Below, piece by piece: positions 35,320 through 58,498 of a DNA stretch of 64,000 nt. This DNA comes from Ectothiorhodospiraceae bacterium WFHF3C12 (lineage in GTDB: Bacteria > Pseudomonadota > Gammaproteobacteria > Nitrococcales > Nitrococcaceae), in contig JACDUA010000007.1 in assembly GCA_013519935.1 (NCBI GenBank), positions 1 to 64,000 on the forward strand, given 5' to 3'. The position numbers and the translations under genes are program-made. Below the pieces are notes generated by a model. That model was not told where the DNA came from. It saw nothing but the letters and a program-made list of their open reading frames with translations, and ran no database searches. Positions within the stretch are counted from its first letter, which is position 1. Each line of letters opens with the position of its first letter.

Positions 35320-36082
35320 GCGAGCGGAACAGCGCCCGCTGTTCGGGTCGCTGGGGCAGATATTCCGGGTGCCACTGAACGCCGACGACCAGCCGCGCCG
35401 CGGTATGCTCCACGCCCTGGATCACCCCTGAACGCTCATGGGCGACCGCGCGGATCGCCGTGCCCGGCGCCTTGATGGCCTGGCGGTGCATGGAGTTGAC
35501 CTCGCAGTCGGTCACGCCCATGACCTCGGCGAGCCGGCTCCCTTGAGCGATGACCACGTCCTTGTATGGGAGAATCGTATGGGCCTGCGGCGCCTCCCGG
35601 TAGAAGGCGCTGAGCTCCTGGTACAACGATCCACCGCAACGCACGTTAAGCAGCTGCGCGCCGCGGCAAATGCCAAGAGTCGGTATGTCCGCGGCCAGCG
35701 CGGCATCGATGAGCGCCGACTCCAGCTCATCCCGGCCGGCGTCCTTGCGCGGTCCCCGCTTGGTGCTCAATAGCCGGCGGCTGAGATAGATCAGCGGCGC
35801 CAGCAGCAGCGTCAGCAGGAAACGCCCCAATCGCCGCCGGCGCGGCCGCAGTTCCTCGAAAGTGAAATGCTCCTCGGTTTCGCCATAGAGCGTCGGGTCC
35901 ACGTCGGCGCCGCCGCCGATGATCAGGCCGTGGATGCCCTGAAGGCTCCGGGGCCGTTTCGGCGTCACGCGCACCGCCCGGCCGCCGGCCATCGTCACCG
36001 CCAGCCTGGTGGCCCACCAGGCGGCGAGGCCGCCCTGGTCCGGCCCCGTGACCGCGATTACGGGGTGGTTGCGTTCTGCCAT
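35249..36082 (-). CDS. Class-I glutamine amidotransferase / peptidase C26-like protein
   Basis: 277 residues. The GATase triad is visible: Cys139 (LGICRGAQLLNV), His238 and Glu240 (GVQWHPEYL). The LIIGGGADVDPTLYG segment resembles gamma-glutamyl hydrolases of the PuuD type. Residues ~73-112 are an unusual Arg-rich and hydrophobic insertion (RFLLTLLLAPLIYL), perhaps a membrane contact. ATG 36082 lies inside the amidoligase gene, overlapping it by 25 bp. Co-occurrence with an amidoligase suggests removal or editing of glutamyl-type amide adducts. Convergent overlap with the lipid kinase. Confidence 0.85.
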   Translation of the reverse strand: MAERNHPVIAVTGPDQGGLAAWWATRLAVTMAGGRAVRVTPKRPRSLQGIHGLIIGGGADVDPTLYGETEEHFTFEELRPRRRRLGRFLLTLLLAPLIYLSRRLLSTKRGPRKDAGRDELESALIDAALAADIPTLGICRGAQLLNVRCGGSLYQELSAFYREAPQAHTILPYKDVVIAQGSRLAEVMGVTDCEVNSMHRQAIKAPGTAIRAVAHERSGVIQGVEHTAARLVVGVQWHPEYLPQRPEQRALFRSLIGAAAQWRTESDRAAEAPPAPR

Positions 36083-37077
36083 AGGCTCAACTCGTGGGCC
36101 CAGCGCTCGTCGACCCCGGTGAGTGTCTCGCGGTGTTGTGCCAGATAGCGGCGGCCCAGCTCCTCCATGGCCTGCGGGTCGTGGGCCAGCTGCTCCACCG
36201 CCAGCCAACCGCGCCACTCCTCGGCGAGTGTCCAGTCCGGTTCGTCGATGGCGCAGTTGGGCAGCCGGTAGTGGAGCGTCGGCCGCGGACGAACCAGGGT
36301 ATTGGGCGGCAGCTGCCGGAACAGCCAGTCTCCGTCCAGGTGGGCGAACAGCGGGAGCATGTCCAGCGGGCGATTCCGGGTCGGGTTTGCGTCCAGGTAA
36401 TCGCGCATGAGCTGGCGCAGCCCGGGCCGGTAATCCGGATCCACCACCTGGCGTACGTAGGCTTCCGGAAAGTCGTTGATGAACGGTACCACCTGACGGG
36501 CGAAATCGATGCGGCTGCGCACCTTCAGCCAGTCCTCCAGCAGCAGGTAGGCCCGAAGATAGGCCAGGGCGGTCCCGCCGTCCGCGCGGGGCACTTCGGG
36601 ATTGAGATGCAGGCCGAACGCGTAAAGGGGAGAGGCCCGGGTACCGAGGGCGCTGTGCTCGCTCAGGGCGCGGCGGAGCTTCTCCAGCTCGCCGGCCTCG
36701 GTCATCGGCACCGGCGGGCAGGCGATTTCGTGGGGGACCACGGTGCCGGCAATACGCGCGAGGATGTCGTCCAGGCGCAGCTGCCATTCCTGGTCCAGCT
36801 CGAAGCCGAGCTTCTTGAGGTACTCGATGTAGGTGCGGTCCTTGAGCATGGCGGCGTCGATTTCGATGACGAAATCGCCCCACCGGGTCCCGGCCACGCG
36901 GTGCTCGAAATGGCTGTCGGCATAGTGGGTGCCCCCGTAGAGCCCCATGATGATGCGCGCGGCCTGGCCCAGCTCGACCCCGGCGAACTCCAGCTCGACA
37001 CCGAGCCTTCGCACCTCGCCCCGCTCGTTCGTCAGGTGTTCGGGGAGCGGGAACTGCTCATCCTGCTGATCGCGCAT
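36058..37077 (-). CDS. Amidoligase-family (COOH-NH2 ligase) protein
   Basis: 339 residues. The N-terminal RLGVELEFAGVELG, central DFVIEIDAAMLKD and YAFGLHLNPEVP match the glutamine-synthetase-fold amidoligase family, which is predicted to join carboxylates to amines on peptides or small molecules. Start is uncertain: ATG 37077 is used, while in-frame ATG 37158 or GTG 37155 would add 27 residues. None has a clear Shine-Dalgarno. It overlaps the downstream amidotransferase gene, so the two form a functional pair of unknown substrate. Confidence 0.85.
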   Translation of the reverse strand: MRDQQDEQFPLPEHLTNERGEVRRLGVELEFAGVELGQAARIIMGLYGGTHYADSHFEHRVAGTRWGDFVIEIDAAMLKDRTYIEYLKKLGFELDQEWQLRLDDILARIAGTVVPHEIACPPVPMTEAGELEKLRRALSEHSALGTRASPLYAFGLHLNPEVPRADGGTALAYLRAYLLLEDWLKVRSRIDFARQVVPFINDFPEAYVRQVVDPDYRPGLRQLMRDYLDANPTRNRPLDMLPLFAHLDGDWLFRQLPPNTLVRPRPTLHYRLPNCAIDEPDWTLAEEWRGWLAVEQLAHDPQAMEELGRRYLAQHRETLTGVDERWAHELSLWQNATTP

Positions 37078-37312
37078 CTGGCAAAAGGTCTGGTCTTCGA
37101 GGCGGCTTTCCTCAGTGGATTGGGTCGTGGCAAGGCCGGGAAAAGAGCATGTCACCATTCTAACCGGTCACCACCAGGATGGGGTGGGGCGTTCCGGCGT
37201 CCACAATGGGGCCCCTGGTTCCGGGCGGTCGCCGGTTGAAATGCCGGGGCGCGCTGCCAGATGAATAGACAGGCGCAAGCCATCCTCGAGCCATTCGCGT
37301 GTGAGGTGTGCT

Positions 37313-40027: not shown

Positions 40028-40097
40028 CCGGAGCGGCCCATGGCCGCGAACAACCGGCATCAACCGATGGCGGTGGCATACGCTTCGCCATTCCACC
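40028..40097. repeat. Two-part dispersed repeat (REP head plus TTCGC hairpin), copy A
   Basis: CCGGAGCGGCCCATGGCCGC at 40028 is a REP-like hairpin. GGTGGCATA-CGCTTCGC-CATTCCACC (40072-40097) is a near-perfect hairpin. Both parts recur at 58.4-58.5 kb in the opposite order. They occupy the 311-bp gap beyond the lipoprotein terminator; I see no gene there. Confidence 0.7.
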
Positions 40098-47656: not shown

Positions 47657-47681
47657 GGGCCAGCGGCGCCATCACTTGAAA

Positions 47682-47975
47682 GGAATCGCCCCGGGGACGG
47701 GCCTCCCACAACTTCGCTGATGGCACGGAGGTTTCCGCCCGGTTGAGGAGCCGCCCGTGGCCGCGCCCGGGCTGCAAAGGGATCGCCCCGGGGACGGGCC
47801 TCCCACAACTTCGTTGATGGCACGGAGGTTTCCGCCCGGTTGAGGAGCCGCCCCTGGGCCGCGCCCGGGCTGCAAAGGGATCGCGGCGGGGGCGGGGCTT
47901 CCGCAACGCCGCTCATGGCCCGTTGGTCGCCATCCGGTTGTAAGAGCGGCCCCTGGCCGCGAACCGGACGTCGAA
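47682..47975. repeat. 97-98-bp tandem repeat, three copies
   Basis: Units start at about 47685, 47782 and 47880 (ATCGCCCCGGGGACGGGCC..). The first two are nearly identical; the third has diverged. Each unit contains the GGGACGGGCCTCCCAC REP arm and a GAGGAGCCGCCC..GGCCGCGCC arm, so a REP pair has itself been amplified in tandem. It begins 26 bp after the ATPase stop. Confidence 0.85.
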
Positions 47976-48412: not shown

Positions 48413-49294
48413 ATGCGATTCGCCAATATTCTGCATGAAGGTGAGCCCACCTGGGCGGTGGTGGACGGGGATGAGCTGGTCGTCCCCGGGGCCCTGGCGC
48501 TGGGTTGCCGCTCCGTGTCAAAGCTCGCGGCCCGCGGCGTCGAGACCGCGGTGGCCTGGGGGCAGCGCGTTCTGGACGACAGTCGCAGCGTCCGCGTTCC
48601 GGTGGGTGATGCCAGGCTGCTGGCGCCGATCCCCCGCCCGCCGAAGAACGTGATGTGTCTCGGGCTGAACTACGCGGCTCACGCCCAGGAGTCCGCCGCG
48701 GCGAAGGGCGACGACTTCCAGGCGCCGGAAGCCCCCGTTGTTTTCACCAAGGCCACCTCGTCCGTCGTCGGGCCGCACGACGATATAACCCTGGACCCGC
48801 GCATCACCGAGCAGCTGGACTGGGAAGTGGAGCTCGCCGTGGTCATCGGTGAGGGCGGGGCGCATATCCCGGAGCAAAAGGCCCTCGATCACGTCTTCGG
48901 CTACACGGTGGTCAACGACGTCTCCGCCCGAGACCGGCAGTTCCGGCACAAGCAGTTCTACCTCGGCAAGAGCATGAACGGCGCCTGTCCCATGGGGCCA
49001 TGGCTGGTGACGCGGGATGCCGTCGCGGACCCGCACGACCTGGTGATGGAATGCAGCGTCAACGGCGAGACGAAGCAGAAGGGCTCGACCGGCGATCTGA
49101 TCTTCAAGATCCCCTATATCGTGCACGTCCTCTCCACCGTGCACCCGCTGGAACCGGGGGACGTCATAGCGACAGGAACGCCCGATGGCGTCGGTTTCGC
49201 CCGCAAGCCGCCGGAGTTCCTGGCCGCCGGCGATGAGGTGGTGTGCACCGTCGACGGCATCGGCAGCATCCGGAACCGGATCGTCGGTGTCTGA
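48413..49294 (+). CDS. Fumarylacetoacetate hydrolase (FAH)-family protein
   Basis: 293 residues. The N-terminal cap MRFANILHEGEPTWAVVDGDEL is followed by the FAH core: NVMCLGLNYAAHAQES, TKATSSVVGPHDDI, the metal-binding glutamates in DWEVELAVVIG, the GYTVVNDVSARDRQ segment and GDVIATGTPDGVGFARKPP. Relatives hydrolyse or decarboxylate acylpyruvates from ring cleavage, or act as oxaloacetate decarboxylase/hydratase. ATG 48413 has GGAGGAA upstream. It precedes the LysR regulator and the liv-type operon on the same strand and likely belongs to that pathway. Confidence 0.92.
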   Translation: MRFANILHEGEPTWAVVDGDELVVPGALALGCRSVSKLAARGVETAVAWGQRVLDDSRSVRVPVGDARLLAPIPRPPKNVMCLGLNYAAHAQESAAAKGDDFQAPEAPVVFTKATSSVVGPHDDITLDPRITEQLDWEVELAVVIGEGGAHIPEQKALDHVFGYTVVNDVSARDRQFRHKQFYLGKSMNGACPMGPWLVTRDAVADPHDLVMECSVNGETKQKGSTGDLIFKIPYIVHVLSTVHPLEPGDVIATGTPDGVGFARKPPEFLAAGDEVVCTVDGIGSIRNRIVGV

Positions 49295-49298
49295 GTAA

Positions 49299-49318
49299 CC
49301 GGGCGCCGTTTCGCCCGG
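49299..49318. terminator. Hairpin after the FAH gene
   Basis: CCGGGCG-CCGTTT-CGCCCGG, a 7-bp perfect stem 5 bp after the stop codon. There is no T-run on the + strand. It may partially separate the FAH gene from the lysR gene. Confidence 0.45.
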
Positions 49319-49426
49319 CAGAGCCCGGCGCGCCTGACCCCGGTCGCGGGCGGCGGCGCTCCGTGGGACATTGGCAGGTGACGCCGCCGGGCACCCGGCA
49401 CGGCTACCGCCAGGGGAGCGCCATTC

Positions 49427-50338
49427 ATGGAAATCGGGTACCTGTACTTCGCCGAGGTGGCGCGGTTCGGCTCGATACGCCAGGCCGCCGAGCGGCTGCA
49501 CGTGTCCGCCTCGTCCGTGAGCCGGCAGATCGTCAAGCTGGAACACGAGCTTGGCACGCCGCTGATTTCCCGCCACGCCCAGGGCATCAAGCTCACCGAG
49601 GCCGGCGTGATCGTCGCCGAGTACGTGCAGAGCCATTCCCGCGAGTTCCAGCGGCTGAAGGCGGCGATCGACGACCTGAGGGACCTGCAACAGGGCCACG
49701 TCATCGTGTTCACCGTCGAGGGCATGCTGGGCGGCGCGCTGCCCCGGGCCCTGGCGCACTTCTCGGCGACGTATCCGGCCCTGACCTACGAGGTCTACGT
49801 CTCCGGCGCCGACGACGTCATGCAGGCGGTTGCCCGGGACCGTTGCGATATCGGCATATCCTTCAATCCCAACCCGCGCAACGAGGTCGAGGCGGTGGCG
49901 CGGTTCTCCCAGCCCGTGCTGGCGGTGATGGGGCCCGAGCACCCGCTCGCCGGTAGTTCGCAGCTGAGCCTGGGCGATCTGCTCTCCACGCGGGTCGCGG
50001 TGCCGGACAAGGTGTTCGGCATACGTCATATCGTCGACCAGGCGGCCAAGGAGGAGGACGTCAGCCTCCCGGTTGCCCTGGAAACGAACTCCATCGACAT
50101 GTTGCGCCAGTTCGCCCTCTACGGGCTGGGGGTGACGTTCATGCCTGCGTTCGCGTTCGAGCGGGAACTGTCCGCGGGAAAGCTCGTCGGCGTTCCGCTG
50201 CATCACCGTCTCATGCGCACGGCGACGACGCAGATCTGCAAACACCGGGATCTTGCCTTGACCTTCTCCGCACGGGCCCTGGCCAGGGTTCTGGTGGAGA
50301 GCTTCGGTCCGGAGCGCTGCGACTTCCGGACCATCTAG
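49427..50338 (+). CDS. LysR-family transcriptional regulator of the catabolic/transport locus
   Basis: 303 residues. The N-terminal winged HTH is standard (MEIGYLYFAEVARFGSIRQAAERLHVSASSVSRQIVKLEHELGTPLISRHAQGIKLTEAG), followed by a periplasmic-binding-like effector domain (LTYEVYVSGADDVMQAVARDRCDIGISF; FALYGLGVTFMPAFAF). It lies between the FAH gene and the transporter operon, all on one strand. A large dyad with a T-N11-A core lies upstream of the next gene, a plausible target. The effector is unknown. Confidence 0.9.
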   Translation: MEIGYLYFAEVARFGSIRQAAERLHVSASSVSRQIVKLEHELGTPLISRHAQGIKLTEAGVIVAEYVQSHSREFQRLKAAIDDLRDLQQGHVIVFTVEGMLGGALPRALAHFSATYPALTYEVYVSGADDVMQAVARDRCDIGISFNPNPRNEVEAVARFSQPVLAVMGPEHPLAGSSQLSLGDLLSTRVAVPDKVFGIRHIVDQAAKEEDVSLPVALETNSIDMLRQFALYGLGVTFMPAFAFERELSAGKLVGVPLHHRLMRTATTQICKHRDLALTFSARALARVLVESFGPERCDFRTI

Positions 50339-50445
50339 CGTCCCACCCCGCAGCTCAGCGTTCCGTAAATGACCGCGGGGTCCCCGCCCGCCATCCTGTC
50401 GGCCGCCCCGCGTGCTTCCCGCCGGACGGGCGTTAACCGGGCCTT

Positions 50446-50479
50446 CCGCGGTGGCGTTGCAATCACCGCAACACCGCGG
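50446..50479. promoter_or_regulatory. Candidate LysR binding dyad upstream of the transporter operon
   Basis: CCGCGG..GTTGC-AATCACC-GCAAC..CCGCGG, with the inner arms giving TGC-N7-GCA (a T-N11-A box). It lies 82-115 bp upstream of the substrate-binding-protein gene and downstream of lysR. Confidence 0.5.
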
Positions 50480-50560
50480 AGCAGAATCTCTACTTCCCTG
50501 CCACGGTAACCGCTGCTATCACTGTTCTTGTAGCGACACCAAATGTGAAGGGGGAGAGCG

Positions 50561-51778
50561 ATGCTTAAGAATCCCGTCAAGAACGCTACGGCCATTCTCG
50601 GCGCCATGCTGATGAGCACCCTCCTCGGCGTGGCGTCCTCCGCTTTCGCCGAAGACGTCATCCGTGTTGGCGCGCCCTTGCCACTCACCGGACCGCTGTC
50701 GCCGGAAGGCGAGAAACAGAAACGCGGTTACGACCTCTGGGCCAAGACCGTCAACGCCGAGGGCGGTATAAGCGTCGGCGGCAAGAGCTACCAGGTCGAG
50801 ATCGAGTACGTCGACTACGAGTCCAACACGCCCCGGGCGGTTCAGACCGCGGAGCGTTTGATCTCGGAGAACGACGTGGACTTCCTGTTCTCGCCGTTCG
50901 GCTCCGGCGCCACCAAGGCGGCGAGCGGCGTCTCCGAGCGTTACGGTATTCCCACCATTGCCGCGACCGCATCCTCCACCGCGGTGTACAACCAGGGTTA
51001 TCGCTATCTGTTCGGCACCTTTACCCCGAACGCAACGCTGACCGACCCTCTCGCCCGGCTCGTCAAGAACTCGGACGAGGAGATCGAGACGGTGGCGATC
51101 TACGCCCGCAACGACCTGTTCCCGCTCGCCATCGCCGAGGAGATGGAGAAATCCGCCAAGAAGCACGGCTTCGAGGTGGTCTCCTTCAGCGAGTACGCGA
51201 TCGGCACCATGGACCACGCTTCGGCGCTTACCGTGATGCGCCGGGAAGAGCCGGACTGGGTGTTCGCCACCGGCTACATCAACGATCTCATCCTGGTTCG
51301 CAAGCAGATGAGCGATCTGGGCCTGTCCCCGAAGGTTCTGACCATGATCGCCGGCCCGGCTTACCAGGAGTTCATCGACGCCACGGGCGATCTGTCGAAC
51401 AATGTCTCCAGCGCTGCCTGGTGGCATCCCGCCGTGGACTATGACGGCGAGGGCACCTTCGGAACGACCGATGCCTACCTTGAGGCCTTCAAGGAGGAAT
51501 ACGGCGCCCGGCCGGACTACGCCGAGGCCTCCGCGAGCGCCGCCGGCGTGATACTGCAGCTGGCCATTCAGCAGGCCGGCACCCTCGACCCGAAGGCGGT
51601 CCGTGACGCGCTGGCGAACATGGACACCACCACCTTCTACGGGCCGATCCGCTTTGGTGACACCGGTCAGATCGTGTCCCTGGAGCCGCCGGTGTTCCAG
51701 ATCCAGGATCGCGAGGCCAAGGTCATCTATCCGGACAGCGTCAAGCAGACCGATCTGCAGTTCGGCGGCATCGAGTAA
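50561..51778 (+). CDS. ABC transporter substrate-binding protein, branched-chain amino acid (LivK) type
   Basis: 405 residues. Signal peptide ILGAMLMSTLLGVASSAFAE, then a type-I periplasmic-binding fold (DVIRVGAPLPLTGPLSPEGEKQKRGYDLW; YESNTPRAVQTAERLISENDVDFLFSPFGSGATKA; IPTIAATASSTAVYNQGYRYLFGTF). The family imports branched-chain amino acids, amides and aromatic or organic acids. The context of catabolic enzymes suggests a non-standard ligand. GGGGGAG Shine-Dalgarno precedes the ATG. A hairpin separates it from the permease genes. Confidence 0.93.
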   Translation: MLKNPVKNATAILGAMLMSTLLGVASSAFAEDVIRVGAPLPLTGPLSPEGEKQKRGYDLWAKTVNAEGGISVGGKSYQVEIEYVDYESNTPRAVQTAERLISENDVDFLFSPFGSGATKAASGVSERYGIPTIAATASSTAVYNQGYRYLFGTFTPNATLTDPLARLVKNSDEEIETVAIYARNDLFPLAIAEEMEKSAKKHGFEVVSFSEYAIGTMDHASALTVMRREEPDWVFATGYINDLILVRKQMSDLGLSPKVLTMIAGPAYQEFIDATGDLSNNVSSAAWWHPAVDYDGEGTFGTTDAYLEAFKEEYGARPDYAEASASAAGVILQLAIQQAGTLDPKAVRDALANMDTTTFYGPIRFGDTGQIVSLEPPVFQIQDREAKVIYPDSVKQTDLQFGGIE

Positions 51779-51800
51779 GCCCGCCGCCAAGCCGCTGGAG

Positions 51801-51827
51801 CCGGGCGGGGCGAAGCGTCCCGCCCGG
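51801..51827 (+). terminator. Intercistronic hairpin after the binding-protein gene
   Basis: Perfect 9-bp stem CCGGGCGGG / CCCGCCCGG with a 9-nt loop and no T-run. Such hairpins commonly stabilise the binding-protein mRNA relative to the permease part of the operon. Confidence 0.6.
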
Positions 51828-51852
51828 TTCACCCAACCGGACGGCCAAGCTG

Positions 51853-52719
51853 ATGCTCTATCTGCAAGTTCTGATTAACGGTCTTGTGCTGGGGGGGCTT
51901 TACGCCTGTATCGCGGTCGGCTTCTCCCTGGTCTGGGGCGTGCTGAACGTCATCAATATCCTGCACGGCAGCTTCGTGATACTGGGCTCGTACGTGGCCT
52001 ATTTCGCCTACGTGCACCTGGGCATTCATCCGTTCTATTCCATCATTCTGGCCGGCGCGGTGCTGTTCGCCCTGGGCTATGCATTGCAGCTGGGCCTCAT
52101 TAACCGTGTCGTCGGCGCCCCAGTGCTGACCACGCTGGTGCTGACGTTCGGTCTCGACCTGCTGCTCAACAACGCCATGCTGGTGGCGTTCTCCGCCGAC
52201 TACCGTTCCATTCAGCTGGCCAATCCCCTCGGCCGCATGGACCTTGGCGAGGTGACGCTGCCGCTGGACCGAGTCGCCTCGATGCTGTTCGCCCTCGGAT
52301 TGACCGGTCTGCTCTACCTGCTGCTCGGGCGTTCCCGGATCGGCCGCGCCATCGTCGCCGTGCGCATGGACCGGGAGGCCGCCGCGCTGATGGGCGTCAG
52401 GGTCCGCCGGGTCTATGCGATCACCTTCGGCGTCGGCGCCATGATGGCCGGCGCCGCCGGCAGCCTGCTGGCCCTGATCTTCCCGATATCGCCGCTCAAC
52501 AGCAGCGAATTCCTCGGCATAGCGTTCGTGGTCTGTGTCATGGGCGGCCTGGGCAGCATCACCGGAGCGATGATCGGCGGCCTGGCCCTGGGCGTGATCG
52601 AAAGCTTCGCGGCGCTGTTCATAGGGCCCGAGCACGGCCTGACCATCGCGTTCACGCTGCTCATTCTCCTGTTGATGTTCAAACCCACGGGCATCATGGG
52701 CAGGAGGGGCTACGAATGA
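51853..52719 (+). CDS. Branched-chain amino acid-type ABC permease (LivH type)
   Basis: 288 residues, about eight helices. It has the LivH signature: LYLQVLINGLVLGGLYACIAVGFSLVWGVLNVINILHGSFVILGSY at the start, and the EAA-like loop with GRAIVAVRMDREAAALMGVRVRRVYAITFGVGAMMAGAAG. It forms the inner-membrane channel with the LivM-type partner. Its stop overlaps the next start (ATGA). Confidence 0.94.
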   Translation: MLYLQVLINGLVLGGLYACIAVGFSLVWGVLNVINILHGSFVILGSYVAYFAYVHLGIHPFYSIILAGAVLFALGYALQLGLINRVVGAPVLTTLVLTFGLDLLLNNAMLVAFSADYRSIQLANPLGRMDLGEVTLPLDRVASMLFALGLTGLLYLLLGRSRIGRAIVAVRMDREAAALMGVRVRRVYAITFGVGAMMAGAAGSLLALIFPISPLNSSEFLGIAFVVCVMGGLGSITGAMIGGLALGVIESFAALFIGPEHGLTIAFTLLILLLMFKPTGIMGRRGYE

Positions 52720-53681
52720 ACAAGAAGGCCGTCGTATCCGTCGCCGTGGTCGTTGCGATCATCGCCGCGCTGCCGGTGCTCGGCGACAATTACCTGATGC
52801 GCCTCGGCACGATGTTCGGCATGTACGCGACCCTCGCGCTTTCCTGGAACATCATCGGCGGCTACGCGGGCTATCCCTCGTTCGCCACCGCCGCGTTCTT
52901 CGGCCTCGGCGCCTATACCGGCGCGCTGCTGCAGGGCGCGGGCGTGCCGATGCCGCTGGCCTGGGTGGCCGCATGCGCCAGCGCCGCGCTATTCGCGGCG
53001 CTGCTCGGCCTCGCGATCCTTCACCTCAAGGGGCACTACTTCGCCATTGCGAGCCTGATCGTCGGTGAAGTCCTGGTGGAGGTGGCCACCTCGTGGCGCA
53101 GCCTGACCGGCGGCGGCATGGGGCTGAACCTGCCCGTGCTCCGCATGGGCGTGGAGGCGCAGTCGCGGCTGTTCTTCTGGTCCATGTACACCCTCGGCGT
53201 CCTGGCGCTGCTGATGAACTGGCTCGTCGCGCGAAGCCGTCTCGGTTTCGGCCTCAACTGTATCCGCCAGAACGAGGACGCCTCGGCCATGGTCGGGATC
53301 AACACCAAGCGCTACAAGGTCATGGCCTTTACGTGCTCGGCGGTGCTGGTCGGTGGCGCCGGGGCGATGTACGCCTCCTGGGTCTATTACATCGAGCCGC
53401 CGGACGTCTTCGACGTGTTGACGTCGGTCAAGCCCATCGTCATGGCGCTGCTCGGCGGGGCCGGCACCGTCCTGGGGCCGGCGATCGGCGCGGGCGTATT
53501 CCTGGTCATGGAAGAGGTGGTCTGGCGGAACTTCCTAGATGTCCATTCGGCGATACTCGGCATCCTCATCGTCGCGCTCATCTTCCTGCTGCCCAACGGC
53601 CTGCTCGGCCTGGCCATCCGGCGCAGGAAGGCGGCTATCGTGGCCAGGCTGCCGACGCTCGCGAAGAGGCGGAAGGCATGA
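52716..53681 (+). CDS. Branched-chain amino acid-type ABC permease (LivM type)
   Basis: 321 residues, about ten helices. LivM-type features are LALSWNIIGGYAGYPSFATAAFFGLGAYTGALL and the cytoplasmic loop GFGLNCIRQNEDASAMVGINTKRYKVMAFTCSAVLVGGAGAMYA. Partner of the preceding permease; overlaps it by 4 bp and overlaps the next ATPase gene by 4 bp, so translation is coupled through the operon. Confidence 0.94.
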   Translation: MNKKAVVSVAVVVAIIAALPVLGDNYLMRLGTMFGMYATLALSWNIIGGYAGYPSFATAAFFGLGAYTGALLQGAGVPMPLAWVAACASAALFAALLGLAILHLKGHYFAIASLIVGEVLVEVATSWRSLTGGGMGLNLPVLRMGVEAQSRLFFWSMYTLGVLALLMNWLVARSRLGFGLNCIRQNEDASAMVGINTKRYKVMAFTCSAVLVGGAGAMYASWVYYIEPPDVFDVLTSVKPIVMALLGGAGTVLGPAIGAGVFLVMEEVVWRNFLDVHSAILGILIVALIFLLPNGLLGLAIRRRKAAIVARLPTLAKRRKA

Positions 53682-54436
53682 GCGATCTCCTCACACTCGA
53701 AGGCGTAAGCCGGCGCTTCGGCGGGCTGCTGGCCGTGGATAACGTCGATCTGTCGGTGGGTCGGGGCGAGATCGTCGGGCTGATCGGGCCCAACGGTGCC
53801 GGCAAGACAACGCTGGTCAACGTCATTACCGGCGTCTACCGCCCGAGCGCCGGCACCATCACTTACGACGGGCGCCGGATCGACGGCATGAAGACCTTCA
53901 GGATCAGTCGGATGGGCGTGGCCCGTACCTTCCAGACCGTGCAGCCGTTCCCGGCGATGACCGCGCGGGAGAACGTCATGGCGCCGGCCACGTTCGCCGG
54001 CAAATCCCAGGGCATCGCCGAGGCGCGGGAGCGGGCGGAGGAGGCGCTGGAGTTCGTCGGTCTCGGCGATGCCAGGGACGCGCTGGCCTCGGAGCTGACC
54101 CTGGCCGGACGCAAGCGCCTGGAGCTGGCCAAGAGCCTCGCCATGGAGCCCAAGGTGCTGCTGCTGGACGAGGTCAACGCCGGGCTCAACAGCACGGAGA
54201 TCGACGAGGCCCTGGACCTGATCCGCAAGGTGGCCGACTCCGGCGTGACCATCATCATCATCGAGCATCTCATGAAGGTCGTGATGTCGCTGTGCTCCCG
54301 GATCGTGGTGCTCCATCACGGAGGCAAGATCGCCGAGGGAACCCCTGACGAGGTCCGTAACGACCGCAGCGTCATCGAGGCCTACCTGGGCAACCGCTAT
54401 GCATCCAGATCCGCGGGAGAGGCGAGCGATGGCTGA
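53678..54436 (+). CDS. ABC transporter ATP-binding protein (LivG type)
   Basis: 252 residues. Walker A GPNGAGKTT, Walker B KVLLLDEVNAGLN and H-loop IIIIEHLMKVV are clear. The ABC signature is the LivG-type variant ELTLAGRKRLELAKSLA rather than LSGGQ. The Walker B flank reads DEVNAGLN, where many LivG proteins have DEPAAGLN. ATG 53678 overlaps the permease stop. It powers import together with the LivF-type ATPase. Confidence 0.94.
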   Translation: MSDLLTLEGVSRRFGGLLAVDNVDLSVGRGEIVGLIGPNGAGKTTLVNVITGVYRPSAGTITYDGRRIDGMKTFRISRMGVARTFQTVQPFPAMTARENVMAPATFAGKSQGIAEARERAEEALEFVGLGDARDALASELTLAGRKRLELAKSLAMEPKVLLLDEVNAGLNSTEIDEALDLIRKVADSGVTIIIIEHLMKVVMSLCSRIVVLHHGGKIAEGTPDEVRNDRSVIEAYLGNRYASRSAGEASDG

Positions 54437-55148
54437 GCCGCTGATGCAGATCCAGGGCCTGGAGAGCGGCTACGGCGAGATTCAGGTCCTGTGGGGCATC
54501 GACCTGGAGGTTCACGAACAGGAGCTGGTGTCTCTCATCGGCTCCAACGGTGCCGGCAAGACGACGCTGCTCAAGACGATTTCCGGGCTGGTCCCGCCGA
54601 CGAACGGCTCGGTCCTGATCGACGGCGAGGAATACGCCGGCCGGCGCCCGGACCAGATGCTGACCGCGGGCGTAGCCCAGGTGCCGGAGGGGCGCCGGCT
54701 GTTCCGGACCATGAGCGTGCGGGACAACCTGCTCATGGGCGCTTACATGCGCCCGCAGAACGATCCCGGCATCCGCGAGGACTACGAGCGCGTCATGGCC
54801 ATGTTTCCGCGCCTCGCCGAGCGGGCCCGCCAGGACGCGGGAACCCTCTCCGGCGGCGAGCAGCAGATGTGCGCCATCGGCCGGGGGATCATGGGCCGGC
54901 CGCGGCTGCTGATGATCGACGAGCTCTCCCTCGGGCTCGCGCCCAGGGCCGTGGAGATGCTGATCGAGAGCCTGCTCGAGCTCAATCGCGCCGGCGTGGC
55001 GATCCTCCTCGTGGAGCAGGATGTCGCCACGGCCCTCGACCTGGCCCACCGGGCCTATGTCGTCGACCGCGGGCGCATCGCGATGTCCGGCACCGCCAGG
55101 GAGCTGGCCGACGCCCCGGAGGTCCGTGAGGCCTACATGGGCATCTAG
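54429..55148 (+). CDS. ABC transporter ATP-binding protein (LivF type)
   Basis: 239 residues. Walker A GSNGAGKTT, PEGRRLF Q-loop region typical of LivF, signature TLSGGEQQMCAIGRGIM, Walker B LLMIDELSLGLAP and H-loop LLVEQDV. ATG 54429 with GGGAGAGG upstream is used rather than the track start 54399. It overlaps the LivG-type gene by 8 bp and is followed after 26 bp by the aldehyde dehydrogenase gene. Confidence 0.94.
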   Translation: MAEPLMQIQGLESGYGEIQVLWGIDLEVHEQELVSLIGSNGAGKTTLLKTISGLVPPTNGSVLIDGEEYAGRRPDQMLTAGVAQVPEGRRLFRTMSVRDNLLMGAYMRPQNDPGIREDYERVMAMFPRLAERARQDAGTLSGGEQQMCAIGRGIMGRPRLLMIDELSLGLAPRAVEMLIESLLELNRAGVAILLVEQDVATALDLAHRAYVVDRGRIAMSGTARELADAPEVREAYMGI

Positions 55149-55174
55149 AGATCGAATGGAGGATTTTGGGTGAA

Positions 55175-56656
55175 ATGACCGACCGAACAGATTCCAGTCA
55201 ACAGGCGGTGGAGTCGATTCTCTGCCCCTACGACGGTCATGTCGTGGGTGAGATGCCGGTGTCCGGGGAGGCCGACGTGGAGCGGGCCGTGGAAACGGCC
55301 CAGCGTGTATTCGGGCAGATGAAGCGGTTGCCCCGGTTCGTCCGCGCGGACATTCTCGACCGCACCGCCGACATCATCGAACGCCGCCGGGAGGAGTTCG
55401 TCCGGCTGATTGCCGCGGAGGCGGGCAAGCCGCTCTACGACGCGCGAGGCGAGCTGTCCCGTTCGCTGTTCAACCTGCGCAACGCGGCCCGCGAGGCGCG
55501 CGCGTTCGCCGGTCATGAAGTGCCGCTGGACGTGGACGGCGGCGTATTCGAGTACCAGACGGCCACAGCCGAAGGCGGCGCCCTGCATCTCGACGAGGTG
55601 GACCAGGACGCGCTGGCCAATCTGGGCCGGCGGATGGGTATCGCGCGGCGCTTTCCCATCGGTCCTGTGCTCGCCATCACGCCGTTCAACTTCCCGCTGA
55701 ATCTGGTGCTGCACAAGGTGGCCCCGGCCATCGCCGTGGGCAACCCGGTGATTCTCAAGCCGGCGCCCCAGACGCCGCTGACCGGGCGCCTGCTGGCCGA
55801 GGTCATGCGCGAGGCGGGCCTGCCGGAAGGCGGCCTGCAGGTGGTTCATTGCGACGTCACGCTGGCGGACCGGCTGGTGCGCGACGAGCGTATCGCCATG
55901 GTCAGCTTTACCGGCAGCGCCAAGGTGGGCTGGCACATCAAGGACGTGGCGGGCAAGAAGAAGGTCGCCCTGGAGCTGGGCGGCAACGGCGCCGTGGTCG
56001 TTGGCAACGATGCCGACGTGAACTTCGCCGCGGCCCGCTGCGTGCGCGGCGGCGTGGTCTATGGCGGACAGTACTGCATCGGCGTGCAGCGCATATTCGT
56101 GCACACCGACGTCTACGACGCGTTCGAGGCGGAGCTGGTGAAACGCGTGGCGGCCTGCCGTACCGGCAATCCGCTGGAGGAGGGCGTCGACGTCGGACCG
56201 GTCATCGATGAAGGCGCCGCGAAGCGCATCGAGAGCTGGATCCAGGAGGCGGTGGACAACGGCGCGCGGGTCCTCACGGGTGGCAAGCGGACCAGGGCGC
56301 TGGTGGAGCCCACTGTCCTCACCGATACCGGGGCGGACATGAAGGTGGAGTGCGAAGAGATCTTCGGGCCCGTAATGACCGTGACCCGTGTACAGGACGC
56401 CGACGAGGGCATCCGCCGTGCCGCGGACTCCCGTTATGGTCTGCAGGGCGGGTTCTTCACCAACGACCTCAGGCGGGCCATGCGGGCGCTGGAGGAGTGG
56501 GACGTGGGTGCCCTGATGATCAATGACGTGCCGATCTACCGGATCGACAACATGCCCTTCGGCGGCTGGCACGACTCCGGCTTCGGCCGGGAAGGCACCC
56601 GCTACGCCATGGAGAGCATGACCGATATCAAGTTCCTCGTCGTGAACTACGGATGA
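55175..56656 (+). CDS. NAD(P)-dependent aldehyde dehydrogenase
   Basis: 493 residues. Catalytic residues are Asn172 (TPFNFPLN), Glu267 (ALELGGNGAVV) and nucleophile Cys301 (GGQYCIGVQR), with EEIFGPVMTV and the PFGGWHDSGFGREG C-terminal motif. A ~25-residue insertion around residues 127-152 (TATAEGGALHLDEVDQDALA) is unusual compared with typical 475-residue enzymes. It oxidises an unknown aldehyde to the acid in the cytoplasm. ATG 55175 has GGAGGA 11 nt upstream. The stop overlaps the next start (ATGA), so it is coupled to the aspartate-dehydrogenase-like gene. Confidence 0.93.
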   Translation: MTDRTDSSQQAVESILCPYDGHVVGEMPVSGEADVERAVETAQRVFGQMKRLPRFVRADILDRTADIIERRREEFVRLIAAEAGKPLYDARGELSRSLFNLRNAAREARAFAGHEVPLDVDGGVFEYQTATAEGGALHLDEVDQDALANLGRRMGIARRFPIGPVLAITPFNFPLNLVLHKVAPAIAVGNPVILKPAPQTPLTGRLLAEVMREAGLPEGGLQVVHCDVTLADRLVRDERIAMVSFTGSAKVGWHIKDVAGKKKVALELGGNGAVVVGNDADVNFAAARCVRGGVVYGGQYCIGVQRIFVHTDVYDAFEAELVKRVAACRTGNPLEEGVDVGPVIDEGAAKRIESWIQEAVDNGARVLTGGKRTRALVEPTVLTDTGADMKVECEEIFGPVMTVTRVQDADEGIRRAADSRYGLQGGFFTNDLRRAMRALEEWDVGALMINDVPIYRIDNMPFGGWHDSGFGREGTRYAMESMTDIKFLVVNYG

Positions 56657-57471
56657 GGGCCACGATGCCGACGCGAGTCGCCGTAGCCGGACTGGGCTCC
56701 ATTGGCTGGAAAGTCGCCGTCGCCCTCGACGACGGCATTGAAGGCCTCGCGCTTGCCGCGGTAAGCGCGCGTGACCGCGAGGCGACCCGGGGCCGGGTCG
56801 CTCTGTTGAATCACCCGCCGGCTGTTTGCCCGCTCGCGGAGCTCGGCGATCGCGCCGACGTGATCGTGGAGTGCCTGCCGCCGGCGAGGTTCCGCGATGT
56901 GGCGGGCCCCGCGCTGGAGAAGGGGCGGATCCTGGTGCCGGCAAGTGTCGGCGCCCTGGTGGAGAACCATGACCTGGTGGCGGTGGCCCGGTCCCATGGC
57001 GGGCGCATCATGGCACCTTCCGGCGCCATCGTGGGCCTCGATGGTCTTCGCGCCGGCGCGGAAGCGGGCCTCGAAGCCGTGCGGCTGATTACGCGCAAGC
57101 CCCCTGGCGCATTCGGTGCCGAGGTGGCCGTGGACGGCAGGACCGTCGCCACCGACAGCATCCGCGAGGCCGTCTGCCTGTTCGAAGGCGACGCCCGGCA
57201 GGCGATCTCGCGCTTTCCCGCCAACGTCAACGTCGCCGCGGCCATCAGCCTGGCAGGCCTGGGCGTCGATGACACCACCGTGGAGATCTGGGCCGACCCG
57301 GGCGTCGACCGCAACGAGCACCGCCTCCTGGCGCGCTCGGTGTCCAACGAGCTCGAGACGCGGGTCGTCAACCTGCCCGACCCGGAGAATCCGAAGACCA
57401 GCGGCATCACGGCCTTCAGCATCCTCGCGTTGCTCCGCCGCCTGGTGGAGCCGCTCACCGTGGGCAGCTGA
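56653..57471 (+). CDS. Aspartate dehydrogenase-like protein (NadX/DUF108 family)
   Basis: 272 residues. A Rossmann start (VAVAGLGSIGWKVA), the ECLPPARF and PASVGALVENHDL segments, RIMAPSGAIVGLDGL, and the catalytic His223 in the DPGVDRNEHRL motif identify the L-aspartate dehydrogenase family. These enzymes interconvert aspartate and iminosuccinate/oxaloacetate with NAD(P). In a catabolic operon it may release or recapture ammonia from an aspartate-like intermediate rather than serve NAD synthesis. Start is ATG 56653 or 56665. It overlaps the aldehyde dehydrogenase gene by 4 bp. Confidence 0.9.
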   Translation: MRATMPTRVAVAGLGSIGWKVAVALDDGIEGLALAAVSARDREATRGRVALLNHPPAVCPLAELGDRADVIVECLPPARFRDVAGPALEKGRILVPASVGALVENHDLVAVARSHGGRIMAPSGAIVGLDGLRAGAEAGLEAVRLITRKPPGAFGAEVAVDGRTVATDSIREAVCLFEGDARQAISRFPANVNVAAAISLAGLGVDDTTVEIWADPGVDRNEHRLLARSVSNELETRVVNLPDPENPKTSGITAFSILALLRRLVEPLTVGS

Positions 57472-57534
57472 GCGGCCGCGTGCAGGCAGGAATGCGGTGA
57501 CAGGTATGGACCGGTAATAGATCAGGAGTATCCA

Positions 57535-58290
57535 ATGACCGAACTTGCGGAAATGGTGGCCGGGAATTACAGATTCGTCCCGGGCGTGTTTCAGTATTCG
57601 GCCGGCGTAGCCGCGATGCCGGGCTACGCCATCGAGCGGGTGCGCTTCTCGCACCCGGTACCCATGCGCGAGGGTTTCGACCGCATCGCCGAGCACCTCA
57701 AGGCCCGGGGCAGGCCGCTGACCGCGTTCTGCGCCTGCGAGATGCGCTCGCCCGAGCCCTTCACGGAATCGGGCTTCCGGTCATTCAACGAGACCTACGC
57801 CGGCGTACTATCGGACTGGGGGATCTTCGACGGCACGACCAACCCGGTGGCCCGGGCCAACGTCTGCCCGGACTACGACAAGCCGCCGGAGCCGAGCTTC
57901 CATGCCTTCTCGTTCACCGTGGAAGCGCCGGAGGCGCCTCACTCCTTCGTCATATCCGGCAGTGGCGAGGCGCCGGAAGGCAAGGGGAACTACAAGGACC
58001 ACATAGTCGCCCGGGGCGACCTCAGCCACGACGGCATGCGGCAGAAAGTGCAGTGGGTGCTGGGCGAGATGGAACGCCGTATGGGTGCCTTCGGCGCCGG
58101 CTGGAGCGAAACCACGGCCGTGCAGGTTTACACCGTGCATGATATCCATCCCCACCTGGAATCCGAGTTCGCCACGCGGGGCAACCTGCACAACGGCTTG
58201 ACCTGGTTCCTGAACCGCCCGCCGGTACAGGAGCTGGAGTACGAGATGGACTGCCGCCGCGTGCACCGGGAGCTGGTCCTTCCGGCCTGA
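57535..58290 (+). CDS. CnbZ-like protein (2-amino-5-chloromuconate deaminase family)
   Basis: 251 residues. The RFVPGVFQYSAGVAAMPGYAIERVRF start, PLTAFCACEMRSPEPFTESGFRSFNETY, NPVARANVCPDYDKPPEPSFHAFSF and GNYKDHIVARGDLS resemble the CnbZ protein, a deaminase acting on an aminomuconate in chloronitrobenzene degradation. I recall this family name from general knowledge and could not check it. No RidA-type motif is obvious. It is the last gene of the liv-aldehyde dehydrogenase-aspartate dehydrogenase run, 63 bp after its neighbour, and would deaminate an imported or derived amino-diacid. Confidence 0.7.
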   Translation: MTELAEMVAGNYRFVPGVFQYSAGVAAMPGYAIERVRFSHPVPMREGFDRIAEHLKARGRPLTAFCACEMRSPEPFTESGFRSFNETYAGVLSDWGIFDGTTNPVARANVCPDYDKPPEPSFHAFSFTVEAPEAPHSFVISGSGEAPEGKGNYKDHIVARGDLSHDGMRQKVQWVLGEMERRMGAFGAGWSETTAVQVYTVHDIHPHLESEFATRGNLHNGLTWFLNRPPVQELEYEMDCRRVHRELVLPA

Positions 58291-58426: not shown

Positions 58427-58498
58427 GGTGGAATACGCTTCGCTATTCCACCCTAGGCGCGGGAGCGGGCGATGTCGGAGCGGCCCATGGCCGCGAAC
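58427..58498. repeat. Two-part dispersed repeat, copy B
   Basis: GGTGGAATA-CGCTTCGC-TATTCCACC (58427-58452, perfect 9-bp arms) followed by TCGGAGCGGCCCATGGCCGC at 58475. Same two parts as copy A at 40.0 kb, in the opposite order. It lies between convergent genes. Confidence 0.75.

Follow-up and report, generated by a model that had tools for sequence, protein, structure and literature searches.

A conserved nine-gene block joining a Liv-type importer to a predicted aspartate dehydrogenase and a CnbZ-family protein: a probable import-and-deamination operon

We begin by considering a run of ten genes in a 64,000-nucleotide stretch of DNA (the window: contig JACDUA010000007.1, positions 1 to 64,000) from Ectothiorhodospiraceae bacterium WFHF3C12, for which an earlier note, made from the sequence alone, had proposed a locus for the uptake and degradation of a nitrogen-containing organic acid. 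All ten lie on one strand, as that note had it, with intact reading frames and clear family matches. They are listed here with their profile matches.

48413-49294 (+): FAH-superfamily hydrolase (PF01557, 248.8 bits; under all NCBIfam equivalog cut-offs); a neighbour, outside the conserved core
49427-50338 (+): LysR-type regulator, first gene of the conserved block (PF00126 and PF03466)
50561-51778 (+): substrate-binding protein (SBP), LivK/Peripla_BP_6 (PF13458, 188 bits; LivK model 97.5 bits, cut-off 477)
51853-52719 (+): LivH-like permease (PF02653; LivH model 120 bits, under the cut-off of 379)
52716-53681 (+): LivM-like permease (PF02653; LivM model 92.8 bits, under the cut-off of 366)
53678-54436 (+): LivG-like ATPase (PF00005 and PF12399; LivG model 225.7 bits, cut-off 362)
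54429-55148 (+): LivF-like ATPase (PF00005; LivF model 210.8 bits, cut-off 441)
55175-56656 (+): aldehyde dehydrogenase (ALDH) of the lactaldehyde/ALDH21-type clade (PF00171, 477 bits; under all NCBIfam ALDH cut-offs)
56653-57471 (+): predicted NAD-dependent L-aspartate dehydrogenase (AspDH), subfamily PRK13302 (NF009825, 279.4 bits, cut-off 253; PF01958)
57535-58290 (+): CnbZ-family deaminase with a predicted tandem YjgF/RidA fold (NF049982, 396.9 bits, cut-off 220)

In the nine-gene block from LysR to CnbZ (49427-58290, plus strand), the overlap is 4 bp for each of the pairs LivH/LivM, LivM/LivG and ALDH/AspDH and 8 bp for LivG/LivF (ATG at 54429), while gaps of 74, 26 and 63 bp separate SBP from LivH, LivF from ALDH and AspDH from CnbZ. 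The overlaps of 4-8 bp described earlier are thus as stated; the spacing of 26-74 bp applies to the stretch from SBP to CnbZ alone, as the FAH-LysR and LysR-SBP gaps are wider (132 and 222 bp). LivG starts at 53678; its listed open reading frame, beginning at GTG 53093, is over-extended. A scan for promoters and terminators gave no signal above shuffled sequence, and a search of the FAH-LysR and LysR-SBP intergenic regions for a LysR box, with 9 of 13 palindromic positions required, found none.

Does this arrangement recur in other genomes? Neighbourhoods were gathered with CnbZ and with ALDH as queries and compared gene by gene. The order LysR-SBP-LivH-LivM-LivG-LivF-ALDH-AspDH-CnbZ is identical in the window, in a Pararhizobium (L014, with L077 from the second, ALDH-based collection apparently the same genome) and in three members of family f49 (L085, L086 and L087, the first two of one genus). 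Proteins of these blocks are mostly 52-80% identical to those of the window (LysR, in the same position, 57-60%; SBP 73-75%; ALDH 76-79%) and the block DNA is about 71-74% identical over about 8 kb; the flanks differ, with generic regulator types as the only common part. Because the nine-gene order recurs in four further genomes, the arrangement is beyond chance, and LysR to CnbZ is a real, conserved catabolic operon in distantly related bacteria. It is very probably a dedicated import-and-deamination unit, and the earlier idea that uptake and nitrogen release belong to a single conserved unit is supported. Horizontal acquisition of the block is likely, since CnbZ occurs only in the window genome among the 23 genomes searched of its own family (absent from the 22 others); the base composition of the block is not distinct. 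Shorter versions also exist: importer-ALDH-CnbZ (L008, L009, L010, L088), importer-CnbZ (L006, L046), and a locus in which an AspDH of subfamily PRK13303 stands directly upstream of the importer-CnbZ genes (L007), so that the linked AspDH is drawn from two subfamilies (PRK13302 and PRK13303). One further locus, L089, has FAH-LysR-importer-ALDH with neither CnbZ nor AspDH. Our literature search found no description of an operon combining AspDH, ALDH, an ATP-binding cassette (ABC) transporter and a deaminase; the gene families are known individually and, as far as literature searches show, their combination is apparently undescribed.

Co-conservation, set beforehand as the first refuting test of the earlier proposal, is found for the nine genes from LysR to CnbZ and is lacking for FAH. 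The FAH gene is absent beside the block in all four full relatives, and for this reason we reject it as a core member and find its earlier placing in the pathway unsupported. A loose link of FAH to ALDH/CnbZ gene sets remains: FAH stands beside the same ALDH-importer set in L089, and in five more loci it goes with another kind of ALDH-CnbZ set. The window's genome carries a paralogue, 64.5% identical, elsewhere. A second CnbZ gene set, of ALDH, FAH and CnbZ with a sugar-type ABC importer nearby, is seen in L021, L053, L073 and L074, together with an amidohydrolase and a GMC oxidoreductase (domains checked in L021 only). Immediately upstream of the window FAH gene lies a tandem array (47679-47961) of 2.9 copies of a 97-bp unit.

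We turn to the two enzymes at the end of the block. The window AspDH passes the PRK13302 cut-off, keeps the motifs N-x-H and NPK-T/S common to the solved AspDHs 1j5p and 2dc1, and is the sole copy in its genome. In a sample of 399 Pseudomonadota genomes, AspDH is present in 14 of the 15 that have CnbZ and in 30 of the 384 that do not (Fisher p=7e-14); with family f49 left aside it is present in three of four CnbZ-positive genomes (p=0.002, on small numbers). All 14 checked genomes carrying the importer, ALDH or CnbZ have AspDH, and in L042 CnbZ, an amine oxidase, RidA, an M20 hydrolase and AspDH lie inside 6 kb.

The window CnbZ covers its family profile from end to end (NF049982, 1-239 of 239). 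A sequence search against solved structures gave no relative, only insignificant matches. An AlphaFold model built from 36 CnbZ homologues has a pLDDT (predicted confidence score) of 93.8, and Foldseek matches it to chorismatase (E=1.6e-6), to many RidA/YjgF entries (RidA from E 5.7e-4) and, among them, to the 2-aminomuconate deaminase AmnE (6izh); CnbZ is thus predicted to have a two-domain, tandem YjgF/RidA fold. Arg107, invariant in 39 sequences, is set by half-domain hhalign, weakly (E 0.026), on the arginine of the RidA 'PARS'/'ARS' motif (RidA Arg105). The counterpart of this 'PARS' arginine decides deaminase activity in Rid proteins (PMC5619798), and chorismatase and 2-aminomuconate deaminase count among the activities of the Rid family (PMC4433059). 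Each CnbZ half is like the Rid/YjgF imine deaminases in predicted fold, and the 'ARS' arginine may stand in the same register, but CnbZ is a single-chain, two-domain protein and 34 of 36 members fall below Pfam recognition. In the CnbZ tree neighbourhood types cluster and the window protein is placed without support. In a Bradyrhizobium-like genus of f49 (g115; L041, L043-L045, L047-L052), CnbZ lies near an oligopeptide importer, and several of these loci have two-component or cyclase signalling genes near CnbZ. A literature search for 'CnbZ', judged by titles and abstracts, returned unrelated material only.

Taken together, the CnbZ fold and the co-occurrence of CnbZ with AspDH suggest that the two enzymes are consecutive halves of a single oxidative deamination, imine formation followed by imine hydrolysis. 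The earlier view that both release nitrogen changes to this extent: two separate releasing steps are not required.

Among solved proteins, ALDH21 is the closest to the window ALDH in sequence. Arg99 and Arg459 of the window enzyme (numbering from 55166) are invariant in 12 orthologues and align with the carboxylate-binding R121 and R457 of ALDH21. ALDH21 is a succinic-semialdehyde dehydrogenase (PMC7823795), and these likenesses only suggest that the window enzyme may act on a carboxylated aldehyde. ALDH orthologues in another setting (L056 and L057, from Rhizobium and Caballeronia, 67% identical) adjoin ferredoxin/FAD reductase and molybdopterin oxidoreductase genes. The importer shares with the LIV-I branched-chain amino acid importer its five subunits in the order K-H-M-G-F, whereas every window subunit scores far under the LIV equivalog cut-offs. 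The nearest structures to the SBP are about 20-23% identical, and the nearest solved one, both by sequence and by fold, is SAR11_0655 with L-pyroglutamate (8wch, 23% identity).

Combining the above, we favour a LysR-controlled catabolic operon of import, ALDH, AspDH and then imine hydrolysis by CnbZ as the best overall explanation, with a confidence that falls just short of an even chance; no simpler chain gives a use to each of the constant parts. In the first step the Liv-type importer would take up a small acid, either itself an amino acid bearing both a carboxylate and an aldehyde or the precursor of one; any conversion of the imported acid would be made by enzymes encoded outside the block. 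Aspartate-4-semialdehyde or a close homologue would be our best guess at the aldehyde, and that the substrate stands at the aspartate-semialdehyde level we infer only as a doubtful proposition. The ALDH would then turn the aldehyde into an amino-dicarboxylate, which AspDH would oxidise with NAD+ to a 2-imino-diacid, and CnbZ would hydrolyse the imine, releasing ammonium and a 2-oxo-diacid, which would be oxaloacetate for aspartate as substrate; this hydrolysis would pull the reversible AspDH step forward. That CnbZ acts on the imine made by AspDH is close to a balanced call. There is a precedent in the Rid2 and Rid3 proteins, which hydrolyse the imine released by the D-arginine dehydrogenase DauA (PMC5619798): an imine deaminase assists an amino-acid dehydrogenase, as we propose here, although DauA is a flavoenzyme with D-arginine as its substrate and the Rids there are single-domain. 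After the fact we noticed that two gene sets fit this deamination logic, that of L042 and that of L089, where RidA and an aspartate-aminotransferase-like gene lie near importer and ALDH in place of CnbZ and AspDH. A further proposal, which we hold rather tentatively, is that the CnbZ family forms a so far unrecognised branch of the Rid imine deaminases with tandem domains, and that CnbZ is here a dedicated hydrolase of iminosuccinate (a 2-imino-dicarboxylate) that would drive the NAD-dependent AspDH in the degradative direction.

Several points weigh against this sequence of steps. Iminosuccinate hydrolyses spontaneously, so that an enzyme is not strictly needed. The relation of CnbZ to the Rid proteins is faint at the sequence level: the Pfam Ribonuc_L-PSP/YjgF models do not match the window CnbZ and match two of 36 members (best E=0.0019), and hhalign of CnbZ against Rid is weak (probability below 20%). 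Because CnbZ also has quite different neighbours in other loci (a methylisocitrate-lyase-like gene with aconitase, or RND and two-component genes), the family may have several substrates. The association of CnbZ with AspDH is supportive and partly phylogenetic, with ancestry as a confounder: of the 15 CnbZ-positive genomes, 11 belong to family f49, where AspDH is present in 145 of 250 genomes (58%). Six of the relatives with shorter versions (L006, L008-L010, L046, L088) have no linked AspDH. The ALDH arginines are found as well in ALDHs of the clade whose substrates are other or unknown. Lastly, Glu226 of the leucine-binding protein, which binds the ammonium group of leucine, aligns with an invariant Ala264 in SBPs of the window type; because of this replacement and the L-pyroglutamate in the nearest solved SBP, the imported molecule may lack a free amino group.

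The last point leads to the strongest of the alternatives, that the importer takes up a lactam, an amide or a ring acid resembling pyroglutamate, ectoine or an N-acyl amino acid, and that hydrolases whose genes lie elsewhere open it before ALDH, AspDH and CnbZ act. We consider it unlikely. Besides the two SBP features just named, it draws on the amidohydrolases in L007-L009, the gamma-glutamyltranspeptidase in L006, the M20 hydrolase in L042, and a gene like that of an ectoine-binding protein (174.1 bits, cut-off 190.9) that adjoins ALDH in L089. However, no ring-opening hydrolase is constant across the loci and none lies in the window block, and the SBP match is of only 23% identity.

It is improbable that the block has no single substrate and consists of an amino-acid importer of broad range with detoxification genes loosely tied to it. 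The importer does fall far under every substrate-specific model, and CnbZ is found in many contexts; against this, the nine genes keep exactly one order in DNA that is about 71-74% identical and lies between flanks that are not shared, which argues for one function.

The aminomuconate branch, as in 2-aminophenol or chloronitrobenzene degradation, would have ALDH act on 2-aminomuconic semialdehyde, CnbZ on 2-aminomuconate and FAH on the oxo-acid. CnbZ takes its name from such an activity in Comamonas testosteroni CNB-1 (2-amino-5-chloromuconate deaminase), the window protein scores above the family cut-off and is 52% identical to cnbZ of plasmid pCNB, and an FAH gene adjoins the block in the window. 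Still, the window neighbourhood has the importer and AspDH in place of ring-cleavage genes, and on pCNB itself the ring-cleavage operon has an ALDH and a RidA of its own and is about 25 kb away from cnbZ. The window ALDH shares only 32% identity with the hydroxymuconic semialdehyde dehydrogenase of pCNB and reaches 276.2 bits against a cut-off of 693 for TIGR03216 (aminomuconic/hydroxymuconic semialdehyde dehydrogenase); the window FAH, compared with two pCNB proteins of FAH or decarboxylase type, matched neither significantly and is not conserved with the block; and AspDH has no role in such a route. As the earlier note observed, no ring-cleaving dioxygenase is among the ten genes, so the route need not be aromatic. 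The window's genome has no 3-hydroxyanthranilate dioxygenase (3-HAO), which is missing from 13 of the 14 checked genomes (the window's own and 12 of 13 others); an AmnAB-type (LigB) dioxygenase was not searched genome-wide. With no ring cleavage or aminomuconic semialdehyde dehydrogenase in the block, no 3-HAO in the genome and a distant cnbZ on pCNB, the aromatic route is disfavoured, and we regard it as quite improbable; the aminomuconate-type substrate suggested earlier is not supported.

That the AspDH-like enzyme is instead NadX, supplying iminoaspartate to NAD biosynthesis beside unrelated catabolic genes, is very improbable: its family includes NadX (TIGR03855, 172.9 bits) and one genome (G1037) has AspDH 3.6 kb from 3-HAO, but the TIGR03855 cut-off of 206.55 is not reached, the block has no NAD-synthesis genes, and AspDH overlaps ALDH by 4 bp in an arrangement kept across five genomes. 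Like L-aspartate dehydrogenase/NadX in its motifs, the window enzyme differs in lying within a catabolic import operon.

Elsewhere in the window, a 26-nt near-perfect palindrome, GGTGGAATACGCTTCGCTATTCCACC, lies downstream of CnbZ at 58427-58452, with a second copy at 40072-40097 (2 mismatches); none is expected by chance, and it is possibly a dispersed intergenic repeat. A putative amidoligase (PF12224, 203 bits) is encoded at 36058-37158.

What would the import-and-deamination operon mean for the CnbZ family? The name 2-amino-5-chloromuconate deaminase is probably too narrow, and annotations of that kind away from ring-cleavage loci are likely over-specific. If the proposed route is true, a protein family at present named for a single chlorinated pollutant intermediate would gain a function, and there would be a reason why AspDH is kept outside NAD synthesis in many proteobacteria. 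The block would then also stand as a nutrient-scavenging operon open to testing, one that apparently spreads between bacterial classes.

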